IMG/VR virus record: IMGVR_UViG_3300035070_001007
Span: 1-27,159 of that record
Source: a virus
Strand: one strand, 5' to 3'
DNA: 27,159 nucleotides
In this document: piece by piece, positions 3,007 through 25,056 of the stretch
How positions within the stretch are numbered: the stretch's first letter is position 1
Layout of the letters: each line of letters starts with the position of its first letter
Notes under the pieces: model-generated
What the model was told of the DNA's origin: nothing
The model's database searches: none
The model's input: the letters and a program-made list of their open reading frames with translations, nothing else
Translations under genes and position numbers: made by a program

Positions 3007-3789
3007 ATGAACTTTAGTTATCGTGACCAGTGGGATATATTACAATCTATAAATCTTACTGATGGTGAGCATAAGTCTATAGATTGCCCGTTCTGTGGTG
3101 GACGTAAGAAATTCAGTATATCCAAGATAGACGGTAAAACTCTTTGGAACTGCTATAAAGCAAGCTGTACAGCTAAAGGTGTATACTCTGGTCCCAGGAC
3201 TATTGAAGAAGCTAAAGCGTATATGGCAGGAAAGAATAAAACAAAGTTTGAAAAAAAGACTACTCCTGTACCCACTATGGTTACGTCGATAGATAACCAC
3301 CCCGCCGCAGTAGAGTACATCAAATCAGTTAACAGTTATGAAGCATACCAAAATGGGTCAGTTACGTTGAAGTACTGCCCTAGTGATAACAGAGTCCTGT
3401 TCTATACACACACTAATGAAGGTGCAGTGGGCAGAAGCCTTTCTACCAGAGGCCCTAAGTGGTGGGCTTACGGAGATACGCAGTCTGGGGTTCACGTTGG
3501 TACGGGGTCTACAGCGGTATTAGTTGAAGATGCAGCTTCTGCCTGTGCTGTGTCCAGGTGCAGTAATATAGTCGGTGTTGCACTATTAGGCACAAACTTA
3601 ACTAAAGACCTCGAAAAATCACTTAGCTGTTACGAAAATGTTATAATTATCCTTGACAATGACGCAAAACAAAAGGCAGTATTTATGTCACGGGCTTTAT
3701 CTAAGTCCACAACAATGAGGATAACTAAGCTGGACTTAAAGGTTCTAAGCTTAGGAGATACCGAGAGGCTACTTTATGCGTACAATTGA
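3007..3789 (+). CDS. T7-type DNA primase with zinc finger and TOPRIM domain
   Basis: This 260-aa protein makes RNA primers for lagging-strand synthesis. The N-terminal zinc-binding domain has Cys27, Cys30, Cys49 and Cys54 (CPFCGG ... WNCYKASC). The TOPRIM part includes VLVEDAASA with Glu174 and the acidic pair in ILDNDAKQK (Asp217, Asp219). It corresponds to the primase half of T7 gp4. The helicase half is a separate gene at 4369. The start is fixed by GGGAGGG (2994-3000) 6 nt before ATG 3007. Another ATG at 3002 is followed at once by a stop. It is the first gene after attP. Confidence 0.92.
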   Translation: MNFSYRDQWDILQSINLTDGEHKSIDCPFCGGRKKFSISKIDGKTLWNCYKASCTAKGVYSGPRTIEEAKAYMAGKNKTKFEKKTTPVPTMVTSIDNHPAAVEYIKSVNSYEAYQNGSVTLKYCPSDNRVLFYTHTNEGAVGRSLSTRGPKWWAYGDTQSGVHVGTGSTAVLVEDAASACAVSRCSNIVGVALLGTNLTKDLEKSLSCYENVIIILDNDAKQKAVFMSRALSKSTTMRITKLDLKVLSLGDTERLLYAYN

Positions 3790-4368: not shown

Positions 4369-5586
4369 ATGGATAAAGCATTGTTGAAGACACTTCTATC
4401 TTCAGAATTCTATCAAGCAAATAAAACAAAAATGAGGCAGTCACTTTTCACAGGTAACAATGCAGAGGTTTATAAAACCATTGCCCAGGCACAGGATAAG
4501 TATGATCAGGATGTTAACACCAATGACATCCTAGCAATCTGGGCTACCAACAACCCCGTTGCCACAGTCTCTGAAAAAGAAGACTTTGCCGATACTCTTG
4601 CCGAAGTGCGGGAGCAAACACCCCTGACGCAAGAGATAGCACGGGATGTTATTGGGGATCTTTGGCGCAAAGAGACAGGCCGGGATGTAACCAACTTAGG
4701 CATTCAAATGGCTGAAGGTCATTCGGATGCAATGGCTAAACTAAAGAGCCTTATTGAGCGCACTTCCGAGGACTACCTTCCAGACGATTTTGGTGAGCCG
4801 ACAACAGATGATCTGTATGAACTACTCGCTCAAACAAGTGATGAGTCACGTTGGAAATTTAACATCAACCAACTTTCTAGGAATGTATACGGTCTAGGCC
4901 CTAGTGAGTTTATGATTATATTCGCCCGACCTGAGACAGGTAAGAGCGCCCTAGCTGTTAGCCTATGTGCAGCCCCAGATGGTTTCTGCCAACAAGGTGC
5001 AAAGGTACTATATATTGGTAACGAGGAAGCAACCCGGCGCACCAAGCTACGGGCCATTCAATCATTCACAGGTATGACCACAACAGACATACAAGCTAAC
5101 CCTGATTTAGCTTCAAGTCGTTACCTAGCCATTCGTGACCGTTTAATTATGAAAGATGCCCAGGAATGGGACATGACTATGTTGGATGGGTATGTCGCCC
5201 GTATCAAGCCTGACATCCTAGTGGTAGATCAACTTGATAAGGTTAACATCGCTGGTCAGTTTGGTGGCACACACGAAAAGCTTCGTGAAATATACCGACA
5301 AGCTAGGGAACTAGCTAAACGACATGAGTGCGGTATCATCGCTGTATCCCAGGCAAGTGCGGAAGCAGAGGGCCGTGTACGCCTAGACTTCTCTATGATG
5401 GAAAACAGTCGTACTGGTAAGGCAGCGGAAGCAGATTTAATATGTGGTGTAGGTAAATCCTCTGGTGAGGATGATGATGGCCCTGATCCCACTAGGTTCC
5501 TACAAATATCCAAGAACAAATTATCAGGTTGGCATGGTCAAATTATCTGCAATCTACAGGCCGAAATAACACGGTATGTAGACTGA
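4369..5586 (+). CDS. replicative DNA helicase, DnaB/T7 gp4 family
   Basis: This 405-aa RecA-fold ATPase would unwind the replication fork as a hexamer. Walker A is ARPETGKSA at 186-194, where the first position of GxxxxGKS is Ala, as in other phage DnaB-like proteins. The catalytic glutamate pair is in GNEEA (219-220), and Walker B is ILVVD (283-287). A helical N-terminal region (about 1-160) takes the place of the DnaB N-terminal domain. It pairs with the separate primase at 3007. The stop overlaps the next start (TGATG at 5584-5588), opening a run of overlapping genes that reaches the polymerase. Confidence 0.9.
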   Translation: MDKALLKTLLSSEFYQANKTKMRQSLFTGNNAEVYKTIAQAQDKYDQDVNTNDILAIWATNNPVATVSEKEDFADTLAEVREQTPLTQEIARDVIGDLWRKETGRDVTNLGIQMAEGHSDAMAKLKSLIERTSEDYLPDDFGEPTTDDLYELLAQTSDESRWKFNINQLSRNVYGLGPSEFMIIFARPETGKSALAVSLCAAPDGFCQQGAKVLYIGNEEATRRTKLRAIQSFTGMTTTDIQANPDLASSRYLAIRDRLIMKDAQEWDMTMLDGYVARIKPDILVVDQLDKVNIAGQFGGTHEKLREIYRQARELAKRHECGIIAVSQASAEAEGRVRLDFSMMENSRTGKAAEADLICGVGKSSGEDDDGPDPTRFLQISKNKLSGWHGQIICNLQAEITRYVD

Positions 5587-6110
5587 TGGGTAAACGATCT
5601 AACTTTGAACGCAAGCCCCGTGACTATTATAGAACGCCTATAGAAGCCGCAGAACCTATCAGACCGTTTATTCAGGATGTCCAGACGTTCTGTGAGCCGT
5701 GTGCGGGTGATGGTGCATTAATACGATGTCTTCTTACGATGGGTATGACCTGTGTCAGTGCCTTCGATATAGAACCTCAAAAGATTGGCATCGATATACT
5801 GGACGCCACCCAGCTTGATGAACATCATCTTAACAATGCAGATGTTATTGTAACGAACCCGCCCTGGGAGCGTTCAATCCTACACCCAATGATAGAAAGG
5901 TTCTCAGATCTGCGGCCTACCTGGCTGCTATTTGATGCTGATTGGGTCCACACAAAACAGGCCATCCCCTTCCTACCAAGACTCAGAAAGATCGTGAGCA
6001 TTGGACGGGTAAAATGGTTCGATAAAACCGCAGGTAAAGACAACGCCTGTTGGTATCTTTTTGACCGTTACAACGAAAGTTATAACACTAAATTCTACGG
6101 GAGAACATAA
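5586..6110 (+). CDS. DNA methyltransferase, probable N6-adenine type
   Basis: This 174-aa class I SAM-dependent methyltransferase is translated from ATG 5586, coupled to the helicase stop. The frame is open further upstream inside the helicase gene, but that part reads as overlap. The AdoMet motif I is FCEPCAGDGAL (35-45), followed by an acidic residue in FDIEP (motif II). The catalytic motif is TNPPW (90-94), the (D/N)PP(Y/F/W) type of amino-methyltransferases. It is short with no evident target-recognition domain. No partner restriction enzyme is adjacent. Such solitary phage enzymes typically protect phage DNA or mark it. The target sequence cannot be read from the gene. Confidence 0.85.
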   Translation: MGKRSNFERKPRDYYRTPIEAAEPIRPFIQDVQTFCEPCAGDGALIRCLLTMGMTCVSAFDIEPQKIGIDILDATQLDEHHLNNADVIVTNPPWERSILHPMIERFSDLRPTWLLFDADWVHTKQAIPFLPRLRKIVSIGRVKWFDKTAGKDNACWYLFDRYNESYNTKFYGRT

Positions 6111-6418: not shown

Positions 6419-6590
6419 TGAACATGACCTCAAAGAATTCTATGAAATGCTTGAGAAGAATAAAGCGGCATACAAGAAATCACAATCACCAGAGGTGAAA
6501 GACCTTTTGGATGAACAGCTAGATTTAATAAACGCTTTTATTCTCAACCAAAAGAAGATCATCGCTAAGTTAGCGGGGTTCAAGATATGA
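6411..6590 (+). CDS. orphan small helical protein (59 aa)
   Basis: This 59-aa ORF begins 8 nt before the previous stop and ends in an ATGA overlap with the polymerase start. The product is highly charged and almost certainly all helical, and might form a coiled-coil hairpin (MLSEHDLKEFYEMLEKNK ... LDLINAFILNQKKIIAK). No family is recognised. Coupling on both sides and phage-like composition support it as a gene. A small accessory protein for the polymerase is possible, but nothing shows it. Confidence 0.7.
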   Translation: MLSEHDLKEFYEMLEKNKAAYKKSQSPEVKDLLDEQLDLINAFILNQKKIIAKLAGFKI

Positions 6591-6979
6591 CTAAAACCCT
6601 CGTACTAGATCTGGAAACCACTGTGCAACGGTTTGATGGAAAGATCGACAACAGCCCATTCAATTGCGCAAATAAATGTGTATCGGCACACTTTGGCTGG
6701 TTAGGCTGGGATACGGTAGATGAAGTAACTAATCTTGTATTTTTTCATGACGAAAAGGATGTTCCTGATAGTCCTGAACCTTTGCGAAAAGCTTTGCAAG
6801 AAGCTGACGTGCTAGTGGCACACAATGCTAAATTCGATGTCCTATGGCTAAAGGCTATGGGCATGCCAATCCCACCTACCATCCGTTGCACAATGATCAA
6901 CGAATATATCCTGGCTAAAGGCCAGAGAACTAAGCTTTCACTGAAAGAGACTGCCCAGCGCAGAGGTGGTTGGGGATGA
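6587..6979 (+). CDS. polA: family A DNA polymerase, N-terminal exonuclease part (broken frame)
   Basis: This 130-aa ORF holds the first two motifs of a 3'-5' DnaQ-type proofreading exonuclease: Exo I LDLETT (Asp8, Glu10) and Exo II AHNAKFDVLWL (Asp84). It ends at TGA 6977-6979, before Exo III. The missing Exo III (PYAEADV) is found at once in the next ORF, which is in the -1 frame and begins ATGA at 6976. Neither product alone has a complete exonuclease site. The residues either side (SLKETAQRRGG... then EQKKSELVDDLF) run on as in intact polymerases. Adding one base near GGGG 6972-6975 would restore one frame. Options are a sequencing or assembly indel, a -1 ribosomal frameshift, or two subunits made by coupled translation. 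No classic slippery heptamer is present. Confidence 0.85.
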   Translation: MTKTLVLDLETTVQRFDGKIDNSPFNCANKCVSAHFGWLGWDTVDEVTNLVFFHDEKDVPDSPEPLRKALQEADVLVAHNAKFDVLWLKAMGMPIPPTIRCTMINEYILAKGQRTKLSLKETAQRRGGWG

Positions 6980-8748
6980 TTGAGCAAAAGAAAAGTGAAC
7001 TAGTCGATGATCTGTTTAAGTCAGGTGTCGGGTTTGAGGCCATGCCTCTGGATGATGTTGTAATTCCCTATGCCGAGGCTGACGTTAAATCCTGTGCTGG
7101 GGTGTACCTATCTCAGATGGATGCTTTTGAGTCAGAAGAAAATCTGTCTTTAAAACCTATTGTTGTCCTGATGAATGAAATGCTTGAATTCTTAGTCGAG
7201 TGTGAAACCAATGGGGTAAAGATAGATTTAGAAGAACTTTCCTCTATCGGTGAACAGTTCCAAAAAGAGCATGATGAACTAAGCAAGCGGCTGGAAGAGA
7301 TCGTAGAAATTGTAATGGGGGATACCCCAATCAATTTAAATTCAGGAGCAGATGTATCTAAACTTATATATAGTAGAGAAGTAGTTAACAGGGACTACCA
7401 TATACAGACCTTCCGCATCGGCACAAACGCTGAAGGTAAACCCCTTCCCCCACCTCGTATGAATAAAGCAGAGTTTAACACTGCGGTACGTTCAAACACT
7501 AGAGTGGTACAGAAGACCTCTGTTGTTTGTTGTCCAGAGTGTGATGGTCGAGGTCTGGTACAGAAGTATAAACAGAAAACTAGGACTAAGAATAAGATAA
7601 CGTACAAGGTTCCTGGTGACCCATATAAGAACTTGTCTAAGTGTCCATCATGTGTGGGTGTGGGCGCTTTCTATAACCCTACGGGTAAAGTGGCAGGGCT
7701 GAAGATAAGTCCTCTTGGGCCTCAGTATGCTTCCGTGAATGGGTTTAAGACTGACAAAGGTACAATAAAGCTTTTGATCTCTCATGCTAAAAGTAAGAAC
7801 AATGATCTAGCTGTGGAATTTCTTACGAAGATTAGTAGGCTTTCGGCAGTATCTACCTACTTAACAAGTTTCGTAAAAGGTATAGAAACCTGGACCCGCC
7901 CTAATGGCCTAATACACACAAACTTCAACCAGTGCATAACCGCAACCGGGCGTCTTAGTTCTTCCAATATTAACCTGCAAAATATGCCAAAACGGGGCTT
8001 CCCTGTCCGTAAAGCTATGGTGTCTAGATTTGACTACAAAATTGTTGAATTCGATTACTCAGGATTAGAATTTCGTGTTGCTGGAGAAGTGTCCCGAGAT
8101 CCTCAGATTATTGAAGATATTCTGAATGGTAAGGACATCCATAAACAGACAGCTTCTATCATTAACCGGGTTTCGATTGATAGCATATCAAAAGATAAGA
8201 GACAGGCTGCTAAAGCATACTCGTTTGCTCCCCTGTATGGCGGCATGGGTGCTGGTGAACCAGAACATATACGGAACTACTTCTCTGAATTCTTTGTGAT
8301 CTACAAAGGTCTAAAATCTTACCAGCAACGTCTTATGGATGGGGTCGTTAAGAACGGTATAGTCCAGACACCTAGTGGCAGACAGTATTACTGGCCTAAT
8401 GCCAGAAGGCTGAAGAATGGTCGTGTCACGAATGCTACTCAGGTAGTCAATTATCCTATCCAAGGATTTGCCACAGGGGACATAGTACCTCTGGCCTGTA
8501 TTCGTGCTTTTAGGCTGTTCAAGAAGCACAACCTAAAGTCGAAACTCATCCTAACGGTACACGACTCAATTGTAGTGGATTGCCACCCAGATGAATTGAC
8601 GCAGGTAAAAAAAGTTTTAGTCGAAGCTATGGCAAATGTAGGCGAAGAATTAGAGCAACGCTTTGATTATAAGCCTGTATTACCCCTGGATGTAGAAATG
8701 ACGGTAGGGCCTAACTGGCTTGAGCAGGAAGAGATTCCGCTTGATTAG
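6976..8748 (+). CDS. polA: family A DNA polymerase, main part with DnaJ-like zinc insert
   Basis: This 590-aa ORF begins at ATG 6976 (a TTG at 6970 is also possible). It opens with Exo III (Tyr32, Asp36 in PYAEADV). Next come helices and a zinc insert with CPECDGRG (Cys186, Cys189) and CPSCVGVG (Cys223, Cys226), two of the four repeats of the DnaJ central domain. Then come TGRLSSSNINLQN (324-336), motif A VEFDYSGLEF with Asp360, the O-helix with Arg409, Lys413, Phe417 and Tyr421, and motif C TVHDSI with His529 and Asp530. Phe417 is at the position of E. coli Pol I Phe762. The DnaJ-like insert is what was described in HMO-2011 phage polymerase. It replicates the phage genome with the primase and helicase. 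Confidence 0.93.
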   Translation: MIEQKKSELVDDLFKSGVGFEAMPLDDVVIPYAEADVKSCAGVYLSQMDAFESEENLSLKPIVVLMNEMLEFLVECETNGVKIDLEELSSIGEQFQKEHDELSKRLEEIVEIVMGDTPINLNSGADVSKLIYSREVVNRDYHIQTFRIGTNAEGKPLPPPRMNKAEFNTAVRSNTRVVQKTSVVCCPECDGRGLVQKYKQKTRTKNKITYKVPGDPYKNLSKCPSCVGVGAFYNPTGKVAGLKISPLGPQYASVNGFKTDKGTIKLLISHAKSKNNDLAVEFLTKISRLSAVSTYLTSFVKGIETWTRPNGLIHTNFNQCITATGRLSSSNINLQNMPKRGFPVRKAMVSRFDYKIVEFDYSGLEFRVAGEVSRDPQIIEDILNGKDIHKQTASIINRVSIDSISKDKRQAAKAYSFAPLYGGMGAGEPEHIRNYFSEFFVIYKGLKSYQQRLMDGVVKNGIVQTPSGRQYYWPNARRLKNGRVTNATQVVNYPIQGFATGDIVPLACIRAFRLFKKHNLKSKLILTVHDSIVVDCHPDELTQVKKVLVEAMANVGEELEQRFDYKPVLPLDVEMTVGPNWLEQEEIPLD

Positions 8749-21328: not shown

Positions 21329-21494
21329 CTACGCTCTCCTCTTCTTTAACTTCCCCCAGGATCATTTCTTCCAACTCATCAAAGTACTCAGGGGTATGAA
21401 ATATTCCGCCCTCCGACATTTCATCAGTAGCACTGGGCGTCTTACCTTGCATAAATGCCTTGATGGATTTTTTTACGGCGTCTTCAAACTTCAT
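21315..21494 (-). CDS. orphan small acidic protein (59 aa)
   Basis: This 59-aa ORF starts in an ATGA overlap with the stop of the S74-domain gene (21491-21494) and ends 14 nt inside the next gene. It begins MKFEDAVKKSIKAFMQGKTP and ends in an acidic tail EEESVDEDV. It has no recognised family. Overlap at both ends and use of the same strand support a translated gene. It may act with the acidic 183-aa protein encoded next. Confidence 0.65.
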   Translation of the reverse strand: MKFEDAVKKSIKAFMQGKTPSATDEMSEGGIFHTPEYFDELEEMILGEVKEEESVDEDV

Positions 21495-23905
21495 TGGATT
21501 TCTCCATAATTAACCATCAGATATCCATCATCCCCTACAGATACTGCTTTGGGGTACTTTTTCTGAACTTCTTGTGCGATCACACCGAACCCAGGGTGCT
21601 TATCTGCCCCCACACGTTTGCCTTCTGAATTCCAATCCCAGGTGTAGTATTTGACACCTTTAATAGTGTCGTAGTATTCGATGTTTTCTTTCAGGCGTTT
21701 ATCTGATTTAGATGTGATCCACGCTGCACCAAGCTTGAATAACCCATCTACAAAACTATTTCCGCCCCCGCTGCTACCTGCTTGCGCTCTAATTTCGGCA
21801 GCTAGTATGGTGGCGTCACGATCTGACTCCGCATTCCATCCCTTGAAAATATAGTCTAGAAGATTGTCCACCCGATCCCACATACGGGTCATTGCTTCTG
21901 TTGAAAGATCTAATGTATTCTTTACGTCAGTTGTTGCAGCATCAAACTCCATTTCTGTGTTTGTTGTAGCCACTGTCTGACGCCATTTGGCATTAGCAAG
22001 ATCTAAGTTGTATTGCATGTCGGCATAAAACTCTTGACGGGATTGCTCTAGTTTGGCGTTGAACTCTCGCCCGTCATTGATTTCACCTGTATTAAACCTT
22101 TTCATTTGGTTTAGCTGTTCAGAGTTTTGCAACGAAATCTGTGCATTCATATTGTCATAATACTTTTGCATGTCGTTAGTCTGTTCTGCTCCAAACAACC
22201 GGGCTGCGTTAATAGCCGCCTGATCATTAAACAGGGCGTCAACCATTGCTTGAGTATTCACAACTTCAGCCTGTTGTTCATTAGTCAGGTTAGCCAAATC
22301 CATTTCCAAGAATGCTTTAGCATTCTGTACCGCAGCGGCCTGTCTGGCATCCAGATTAGCTATTTCAAATTTAGCCAACACGGCGGCTTTATTAATGATA
22401 GCTTCTTGTCTGTTATCTAAATTCTTAGTTGTTAGTGTCTGAAAGAATGTTGCTTCTTTTTCTGCAATCCCCAGGGTTGCTTCCATGATGGCATTACTCA
22501 TTGCAGCGGTTGCGGCAGTACCAGAGATACCTGAGAAGGCCATCGTTTTAGAAGTCTCACGGGCCAGTGCTTGCGCCCACGGGGGTATTACAGGGTTACC
22601 GTTACTATCTTTAAATTCGGCAGAGATAATTTCCATCTGCCCAAGGATAGTAGCCTTGCTATCCGTGTAGTTGCCTTCACCTAATTTCTGGGCAAGCAGT
22701 TTACCTGCAACCGTAGACGTATCAATAATATTACTAATGTTTTGTGTGGCAAAGTCATTTAAAGCCTCGCCTGTAACACTTACTGTGCCGTCTGCATTTA
22801 CACCTGTGGCAGCGCCTGTCATATCAATCTGAGCAGCGTCTACGAGGTTTTCATCACGGATCTCGCCTGTGGCTGCATTTACGGTTGTTGCGTCAGTTCC
22901 TAGCAAATCTTCTGTAGTGCTGGCGTCATAAGTTACTGCACCAGGATTATCTACATTGTCTACAAGGCTTGTTTCGCCCGTCTGCTCCACCTCTACTTCA
23001 GGGCTTTCCCCTAGTAAGTAGTTTTCGCTGGTAGGGTCTAACAATGTTCCTACAGTCTCAGGATCAAGATTAGGCAGCTTATCTACAAGACTTGCGCCGT
23101 TAGCCTTTAGCCACCCCGCAGGATCATCTAGGATAGCTTGTATTTGTTCGTTGCTGGTAGCCATACCAGCTTCTTCAGCCATCTTAATGATGGTTTCTGC
23201 CCCTGACGTTGTAGAGTTGCTACCATCGTCCTCAGTACCATTGTCGGCGGCTTCTTGAAGAATAGCGTCTGCCTGATCATTATCCCCACGCTCACGGGCG
23301 TCTTGGGCCATTTTTTCATAGCCAGATGACGATTGATCATAACCTTCCTCCCCAGGGTATTTACCAGATGCATCTTTGCGTAAGAAGTCTTGTACCTGCC
23401 CCGTGGTTTCGTTCACTTCTACCTGATACTGCATTCCCAAAAAGTTATGGGAATATTGAAAATCTGGCTCACCATCTTTTCCTGGTCGAGTATATACCAC
23501 CCTACCATCTACAACCTGACTAGGATCTTTTTCAGGGTCTGTGCCGTTAGCCCACCCTGCTAATGCGCCAATAACACCAATAGGTGATGCAAAACCTAAA
23601 ATCTTATTAATTCCAGACGGGGCAGCGCCTTTAGGCACAAAGTCTTCGTTTACTCCACTAGAAGTAACATTGGCCTCAGTGTCGTTTCCTGCGGTGTTCG
23701 CACTACCCGTATAAACCGAAGTGCCATCACTATCACTTCCGTATCCCCCTGAAGAGTTTGTCGGAACAACCGTACCTGCGTTAGACCCAGAGTCATACGT
23801 TAGCGTACCCCCCACATAGGAAGCCCCATCATTAGGAGTAAACGTATTAGCCACACTCTCAGTAAAGCTATTACCACCGCCAAAATTATCTGCCCAAAAG
23901 CCCAT
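21491..23905 (-). CDS. structural protein with short C-terminal S74-like chaperone domain (804 aa)
   Basis: The N-terminal ~130 residues are Gly/Ser/Thr/Asn-rich. The middle (about 440-710) is long helix or coiled-coil with Gln/Asn/Ala. The C-terminus (734-804) has the start of an intramolecular chaperone autoprocessing (peptidase S74) domain: SDKRLKENIEYYD, YTWDW, GVIAQEVQKKYPKAV and VNYGEI. In this family the domain directs trimer folding and cleaves itself at the Ser before Asp. Here only about 71 residues are present, shorter than the usual domain, so cleavage may not occur. Probably part of a tail appendage or fibre. Its start overlaps the Rz1 stop (TAATG). Confidence 0.78.
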   Translation of the reverse strand: MGFWADNFGGGNSFTESVANTFTPNDGASYVGGTLTYDSGSNAGTVVPTNSSGGYGSDSDGTSVYTGSANTAGNDTEANVTSSGVNEDFVPKGAAPSGINKILGFASPIGVIGALAGWANGTDPEKDPSQVVDGRVVYTRPGKDGEPDFQYSHNFLGMQYQVEVNETTGQVQDFLRKDASGKYPGEEGYDQSSSGYEKMAQDARERGDNDQADAILQEAADNGTEDDGSNSTTSGAETIIKMAEEAGMATSNEQIQAILDDPAGWLKANGASLVDKLPNLDPETVGTLLDPTSENYLLGESPEVEVEQTGETSLVDNVDNPGAVTYDASTTEDLLGTDATTVNAATGEIRDENLVDAAQIDMTGAATGVNADGTVSVTGEALNDFATQNISNIIDTSTVAGKLLAQKLGEGNYTDSKATILGQMEIISAEFKDSNGNPVIPPWAQALARETSKTMAFSGISGTAATAAMSNAIMEATLGIAEKEATFFQTLTTKNLDNRQEAIINKAAVLAKFEIANLDARQAAAVQNAKAFLEMDLANLTNEQQAEVVNTQAMVDALFNDQAAINAARLFGAEQTNDMQKYYDNMNAQISLQNSEQLNQMKRFNTGEINDGREFNAKLEQSRQEFYADMQYNLDLANAKWRQTVATTNTEMEFDAATTDVKNTLDLSTEAMTRMWDRVDNLLDYIFKGWNAESDRDATILAAEIRAQAGSSGGGNSFVDGLFKLGAAWITSKSDKRLKENIEYYDTIKGVKYYTWDWNSEGKRVGADKHPGFGVIAQEVQKKYPKAVSVGDDGYLMVNYGEIQ

Positions 23906-24150
23906 TAGATTTTATCCTTTTCCTCATTACATCTACGGATACGATCCCGCAGGTAGATGTAGTTTTTTACAGCCTCATCGATTGCCGTAGATGCGGCAGG
24001 AAGACTTTCTAATTCATCAGCTAATTGGTTGTTGAACCGCTCATCATACTGCTTGATTTGTGGACAGTAGATTTCGAGTTTGGTCCTATAAACCGTTTGA
24101 GCGCAGCCTGTCAGTAATAGACTTGCGGTCAGTAAGATTGTCAGTTTCAT
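23905..24150 (-). CDS. Rz1: outer-membrane spanin subunit, Rz1-like lipoprotein
   Basis: I chose ATG 24150, giving 81 aa: MKLTILLTASLLLTGCAQ is a lipoprotein signal peptide with lipobox LTGC. Longer frames begin upstream but would bury the signal. The mature part is short and helical, with a charged C-terminus (RDRIRRCNEEKDKI). It would sit in the outer membrane and join Rz through the periplasm to fuse the two membranes in the last lysis step. The first 65 nt overlap the end of the Rz gene in another frame, the classic nested arrangement. Confidence 0.85.
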   Translation of the reverse strand: MKLTILLTASLLLTGCAQTVYRTKLEIYCPQIKQYDERFNNQLADELESLPAASTAIDEAVKNYIYLRDRIRRCNEEKDKI

Positions 24151-24325
24151 TATCTGCCATCGTTTTATAAAAATCATATTGTCTTTGACGGGCTTCAAGT
24201 TCATCAGTTAGAACTTTATTCTTTTCTTTTGCCCGTCCTTTAACCTGTCCAAAAACGTAAATAATGGGCAGGGCCAATGCTAAAGTGGCAATGATGTACA
24301 TTTTAATCTTGCCAAATATGAACAT
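24086..24325 (-). CDS. Rz: inner-membrane spanin subunit, Rz-like
   Basis: I chose ATG 24325, giving 79 aa and overlapping the endolysin stop (TAATG). It has a basic start (MFIFGKIK), one membrane helix (about residues 9-25, YIIATLALALPIIYVFG) and a periplasmic coiled-coil of charged heptads (EKNKVLTDELEARQRQYDF). This is the standard i-spanin plan, at the short end for the family. The longer frame to 24394 has a basic leader in the endolysin gene and is less likely. Confidence 0.82.
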   Translation of the reverse strand: MFIFGKIKMYIIATLALALPIIYVFGQVKGRAKEKNKVLTDELEARQRQYDFYKTMADNETDNLTDRKSITDRLRSNGL

Positions 24326-25056
24326 TAATGGACGCCTTCTTTGTTGTCTTTGAAACGAGCGTATGCAGCCAATGCGATCCCGCCGATTGCACACACCAAG
24401 AAGATTGTTTTGAGCATAGGGGCGTAAGCTACCAGCCCCTGCATTTGACCTGCTACTTCGTTCATTGCAGTAGCCGCCCCAGCGATCCCGGCCCCCGCCA
24501 TTGTCTTAGACTTAGCAAGCGATTTAGGAGCCTCTGCGGTAGGTTTCTGAACCATCTGTGGCCCACCTTCATCCGAAGGCAACTGAGCGTCACGGGAGAA
24601 GATAGCAGCCTCTGCGGTACGGCGGCGTGTTAGCCCACGAAGCGGCGTTAGTTTGCCATCCACACGGGCTTTGTTCCAGCGCATGATCTGTTCCGGACAT
24701 TCGTCGTACTTTCCAGAGTTCAGACGTGTAAGCAAAGTTGATGATCGGAACGCACCACCGCCTAAATTGAATACAAATGAGGTCAAGGAATCGTACTGAG
24801 ATTGAGTTAAAGGTACATTAACGTACTTCTTAACAATCTTGCCGTGTTCCTCTAAGTCCTCAATCAGACGCATTTCGGCATATTCTTTAGTCCACTTAAC
24901 TCCAGAGCGCACCCCTTTGGTCGCTCCAAATCCGCAAGTCCACTTTCCTGCGGGACAACGATAGGCGTGTACCATCCCATCGTCTTTCACTCGATGCAGA
25001 CCTTCAAACTTTTTAACAAGTTCTACGCAATCTTTAGATACTGTTGTTGGATGCAT
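24325..25056 (-). CDS. endolysin, GH24 (T4-type lysozyme) with C-terminal membrane segment
   Basis: The 243-aa protein has a GH24 muramidase domain (about 5-160). Glu18 in KKFEGL is the catalytic acid. AYRCPAGKWTCGFGATKG follows, with Cys34 at the usual catalytic Asp position (as in lysozymes with YRCPAG) and Thr40. The linker between Glu18 and this motif is several residues longer than usual. A Gly/Ala-rich stretch (AGAGIAGAATAMNEVAG) is followed by a hydrophobic helix (about 212-230, IFLVCAIGGIALAAYA). There is no N-terminal signal. The membrane segment suggests anchoring or self-export, and no separate holin was recognised. It begins the lysis cassette endolysin-Rz-Rz1. Confidence 0.9.
   Translation of the reverse strand: MHPTTVSKDCVELVKKFEGLHRVKDDGMVHAYRCPAGKWTCGFGATKGVRSGVKWTKEYAEMRLIEDLEEHGKIVKKYVNVPLTQSQYDSLTSFVFNLGGGAFRSSTLLTRLNSGKYDECPEQIMRWNKARVDGKLTPLRGLTRRRTAEAAIFSRDAQLPSDEGGPQMVQKPTAEAPKSLAKSKTMAGAGIAGAATAMNEVAGQMQGLVAYAPMLKTIFLVCAIGGIALAAYARFKDNKEGVH

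Follow-up and report, generated by a model that had tools for sequence, protein, structure and literature searches.

A family A DNA polymerase of HMO-2011-like viruses encoded in two overlapping genes, with its exonuclease motifs divided between the two predicted chains

The window analysed here, a 27,159-base IMG/VR virus record with an HMO-2011-like replication module, encodes its DNA polymerase in two overlapping genes, and this arrangement is probably a true fission of an HMO-2011-type family A polymerase in which two chains, the second made by reinitiation, rebuild one proofreading domain. The module carries genes for an integrase, ThyX, a primase, a DnaB-type helicase, the polymerase, a Cas4-type exonuclease, a RusA-like resolvase, MazG and ribonucleotide reductase. 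The polymerase gene pair has the following features.

6587..6979, plus strand: polymerase N-chain (ORF1), 130 aa, TGA stop at 6977-6979; N-terminal part of the 3'-5' exonuclease domain
6964..6969, plus strand: GAGGTG, Shine-Dalgarno-like (SD-like), within the N-chain gene at its 3' end, beginning in an Arg codon, 6-8 nt before the ATG at 6976
6976..6979, plus strand: ATGA start/stop overlap of both genes, the same overlap as in 28 of 30 distinct split relatives
6976..8748, plus strand: polymerase C-chain (ORF2), 590 aa, ATG start at 6976; remainder of the exonuclease domain, DnaJ-like insert and family A polymerase
6985..7050, plus strand: KKSELVDDLFKSGVGFEAMPLD codons, the strongly conserved C-chain start right after the junction

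The N-chain contains Exo I (LVLDLETT) and Exo II (HNAKFD) and matches Pfam PF01612 (E 1.2e-5) as well as a PHROG annotated as DNA polymerase. Exo III (PYAEAD) is found in the C-chain, whose reading frame is -1 relative to ORF1 and which matches PF00476 (E 7.9e-65), with the complete polymerase domain inside this chain alone and two CXXCXGXG motifs forming a partial DnaJ domain (zinc insert) between exonuclease and polymerase. PHROG and Pfam gave no extra domains in the chains beyond the exonuclease and polymerase matches. The catalytic residues of all three motifs of the DnaQ-like domain (PF01612) are thus present in the window but divided over two chains, and it is from this gene anatomy that a proofreading site shared by two chains is proposed. 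A preliminary description of this DNA had located the break after Exo II and before Exo III, the first two motifs being in 6587-6979 and the remainder from 6976 in the -1 frame, and had stated that neither chain holds a full proofreading site; both points are borne out, and its coordinates for the junction are correct. GAGG lies at 6964-6967, 8 nt before the ATG, the GGGG run at 6972-6975 adjoining the stop overlap, and ATGA at 6976-6979.

Elsewhere in the window, a DNA methyltransferase-like ORF (5529-6110, PHROG 799) is listed with a TTG start giving a 58-nt overlap with the end of the helicase gene; an ATG further on, near 5583, is the likelier start. On the minus strand, overlapping small ORFs at 23905-24394, of which one has a signal anchor and another a lipobox (LTGC), resemble an Rz/Rz1 spanin pair that comes after the gene for lysozyme (24325-25056), and a large protein (21491-23905) with a C-terminal peptidase S74 intramolecular chaperone domain is probably a tail protein.

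Relatives were then compared for a recurrence of the split, a point raised in the preliminary description. A first IMG/VR search yielded 14 close polymerase relatives with a readable junction, all but one of them split and most with the GGGGATGA junction; L013 is a fused relative. A search for relatives of the N-chain added further loci, and the fetched loci as a whole gave 145 distinct junctions, of which 115 are fused and 30, the window included, are split at the same loop, although these numbers are not frequencies in nature, the relatives having been sampled by similarity. Only one other break of the polymerase was seen among the 145 loci, and as the same loop is broken in 30 of them the split is not a matter of chance. 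The exception is L135, where the C-chain is broken in overlapping frames near 3655-3724 of the locus, about 105 residues past the exonuclease loop. A later pattern search added more split contigs, whose junctions are of the kinds already seen (L217/L227, L231 and L237/L248); L237 and L248 have an insert of about 14 residues in the N-chain (TYEKDEDGNSVAIK) before the junction helix and a split junction of the L080 type. In bacterial genomes only distant Bacteroidales matches were found.

These comparisons bear on the first explanation offered in the preliminary description, a one-base indel from sequencing or assembly in the G run with the real gene intact. The run does adjoin the stop, but about ten other metagenome sets contain contigs with the identical junction, other relatives show different junction sequences at the same loop including split ones without a G run, and the window junction is 11 nt longer than that of fused genes, for which one base is insufficient. 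We give this explanation practically no weight; the break is genuine and inherited, and among marine bacterial viruses of a widespread group the HMO-2011-type polymerase appears to be repeatedly split at one spot.

At the junction, fused genes read ERR-DVTR-KKSD, while split genes stop soon after RR and restart just before QKKSD. Fused genes have 12 nt (in a few cases 15) from the RR codons to KKS, split genes mostly 23 or 26 nt (range 22-152), counts of 45, 48 and 59 being an artefact of matching an earlier Arg pair. Despite differing sequence, with N-chains ending in GGWG, GAVE, DALA, SLAA, RAG, RAA or NKAT before the stop codon, the split junctions have an exact ATGA except in L095 and L144, which are also in another frame relation. 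The SD match before the restart usually begins in the Arg codons of 'ERR' (GARAGGAGR, CGCAGGAG, AGAGGTG). In the window the duplex of GAGGTG with the anti-SD has an energy of -7.0 kcal/mol; the mean at the junction is -7.4 kcal/mol for split and -3.3 for fused genes, and AGR codons account for 40 of 58 junction Arg codons in split genes compared to 39 of 175 in fused ones (33% elsewhere in split genes), both comparisons being raw counts with related sequences included. Of the 6 independent pairs on the tree, 4-5 show an SD strength that tracks the split and none opposes it, six pairs being too few for significance. Right after the junction, the KKSELVDDLFKSGVGFEAMPLD region is 95% identical between split clades, compared to about 49-62% for the rest of the C-chain.

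The junctions differ in further details. N-chain tails comprise 2 to 23 residues, the longest (MGIEVGMATSDEQPHEYYEDALA) occurring in L014, L032 and L033 together with an own GAGG before the ATGA, and L087 has an N-terminal extension of the C-chain of about 40-44 residues (2626-2757), its clade carrying a single CXXCXGXG motif. No homologues of the L014 tail or the L087 extension were detected among the fetched loci. A Gln before KKS was considered as a marker of the split (present in all 30 split genes and in 1 of 84 fused genes of the first set) and rejected after more Gln-bearing fused loci were found, leaving it as a correlate only. The fused loci L221, L234 and L247, which came from a pattern search that required Gln, have yet another type of loop (NLSNQKK), in which Gln precedes KK.

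A programmed -1 frameshift, which would yield a full-length polymerase with the short product as a by-product, had also been considered in the preliminary description, and in the window the two halves are indeed in a -1 relation with both frames open jointly for 46 nt. As a conserved mechanism, however, it does not hold: none of the 30 split junctions contains a canonical slippery heptamer (X_XXY_YYZ), the overlap windows go down to 16 nt, the frame relation is the other one in L095 and L144, and neither the variable tails nor the C-chain extension of L087 fit. Frameshifting is therefore very unlikely. The third proposal of the preliminary description, two subunits coupled by reinitiation at ATGA, is the one supported, by the recurrent overlap, by the embedded SD match and by the purifying selection on both halves described below. 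ATGA is the commonest gene overlap in prokaryotes and on its own therefore weak evidence of coupling. Taken together, the stop/start overlap, the SD and the absence of a gene between the halves make termination-reinitiation or internal initiation the simplest route to two chains. Translation of ATGA pairs has been found coupled in experiments, and genes encoding subunits of one complex are overrepresented among such pairs (PMC6728339, PMC10666635).

In order to place the split in the fold we used an AF2 model of the fused L013 (pLDDT 90), in which the split site corresponds to a loop of lower confidence (125-132) flanked by the short helices 118-124 and 133-140, preceding the Exo III helix (150-176). 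The best PDB matches were Klenow-type Pol I, and a profile alignment to Klenow puts Exo II at D424 and Exo III at Y497/D501 of E. coli Pol I; the split falls near residues 467-472, in the loop that precedes FEEIAGKG (residue numbers counted by hand from the chain start at 324). The gene is divided within a short loop that separates Exo II from Exo III, its halves overlapping by ATGA. Ribosomes ending the N-chain would restart on the C-chain, or might initiate there from the SD in the Arg-Arg codons; the beta sheet bearing Exo I and II would come from the N-chain, the helix bearing Exo III (Y/D) from the C-chain, and both chains would most likely fold together as fragments of one exonuclease domain to give one proofreading polymerase. 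We infer such a fragment complementation from the fold, the constraint and the 43A/43B precedent discussed below, and reinitiation, assembly and exonuclease activity of the split form are likewise predictions from sequence.

Both halves are under purifying selection. Where the data of a split clade sufficed, dN/dS is 0.03-0.12 in the N-chain and 0.06-0.11 in the C-chain, similar to fused genes, and Exo I and II are found in 30 of 30 split copies and Exo III in all except L075, whose contig ends too early. Polymerases with a weakened exonuclease can favour displacement synthesis, and the C-chain alone holds the entire polymerase domain, so that the split could also represent an exonuclease-deficient polymerase, on purpose or by decay, with the C-chain working alone and the N-chain being vestigial or only sometimes bound. 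The low dN/dS of the N-chain, the retention of its motifs in every split copy under a constraint equal to that of fused genes, and the constant adjacency and overlap of the two genes make this unlikely, even if it is the least improbable of the alternatives. The exonuclease of the split form could be inactive, though its residues are strongly constrained.

The split could also be the scar of a homing endonuclease or intron, as proposed for T4-like gene 43 and MEP401 phages (PMC2988022, PMC10580990), in which case the chains would cooperate likewise. The tails of the L014 and L087 junctions, which lack known relatives among the fetched loci, would fit such an origin, but none of the 30 split loci has an inserted ORF (gap at most 147 nt), Rfam gives no intron match at the window junction, and the split site is a loop and not an active-site motif. 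We consider a scar improbable, if slightly less so than frameshifting.

For the history of the proposed fission the two halves were analysed separately. Mapping the split label on the C-half tree takes 7 changes, 6 or more of them on well-supported branches, and a single split clade is rejected for the polymerase halves (AU p ~1e-4; 4e-6 without the L080 group), whereas for the N-halves without the L080 group a single split origin is not rejected (p 0.109), and in view of this difference we put no figure on how many fissions occurred independently. In the N-half tree the window, L040 and L087 groups cluster with weak support, and the fused L013 lies inside this cluster, suggesting that N-halves were exchanged between lineages and that L013 was re-fused. 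Fused sisters match the flanking DNA of the L080 group at 80-100% identity along most stretches, but for about 180 nt starting at the junction the value falls to about 55-75%, and the fused L094 and the split L080 have the same patch downstream of it; we regard this patch as a recombined cassette or local replacement. These patterns indicate that the split recurred or moved by recombination, and it was probably re-fused once. More tentatively, and with somewhat less than even confidence, we propose a natural split enzyme with a two-chain proofreading site in which the split is a small recombining cassette (the junction and about the first 50 C-chain codons with Exo III) that moved among phage lineages, arose more than once, was re-fused at least once and took its start signal from the enzyme's own conserved Arg-Arg codons.

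Close natural pairs have the same proofreading domain as one chain or two: the aligned N-chain parts of L070 (split) and L069 (fused) are identical in sequence, and L080 (split) and L094 (fused) share 92% DNA identity. Such pairs allow direct tests of gene fission, of assembly coupled to translation and of whether a two-chain proofreading site is costly or beneficial. Polymerase-based phage surveys may count the C-chain alone and mistake it for an enzyme lacking the exonuclease.

By homology and domain order the window enzyme can be classified as a split variant of the HMO-2011-type polymerase. The polymerases of CRP-235, CRP-3, CRP-212, CRP-738 and HMO-2011 share with it family A, the DnaJ-like CXXCXGXG insert and the replication module, and HMO-2011-type phage polymerases are 34-66% identical to the window over the C-chain, but in the isolates examined in the phage collection exonuclease and polymerase are in one gene, whereas the window and 29 other distinct loci are split. 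No mention of a split was found in the searched text of openly available papers on HMO-2011-type and virioplankton polymerases. Split phage polymerases as such are known; those we found are cut elsewhere or by inserts, and the open literature searched gave no report of a break between Exo II and Exo III. Termination-reinitiation pairs (PMC6728339, PMC10666635) resemble the window in their ATGA overlap, internal SD and adjacent partner genes, but they usually encode two different subunits, whereas the window encodes fragments of one domain with a coupling that is predicted. In the T4-like Aeromonas phages 25 and 44RR the replicative polymerase is also made from two genes, 43A and 43B, whose products co-purify and polymerise (PMC2988022); this enzyme belongs to family B and its halves are set apart by an endonuclease gene or intercistronic sequence, in contrast to the family A enzyme of the window with its ATGA overlap, no insert and the split between Exo II and Exo III. 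MEP401-type OM43 phages are marine and likewise have a family A polymerase in two ORFs (PMC10580990), but there the cut lies inside the polymerase domain with a small ORF in between and the exonuclease domain is whole, whereas in the window it is the exonuclease that is cut.
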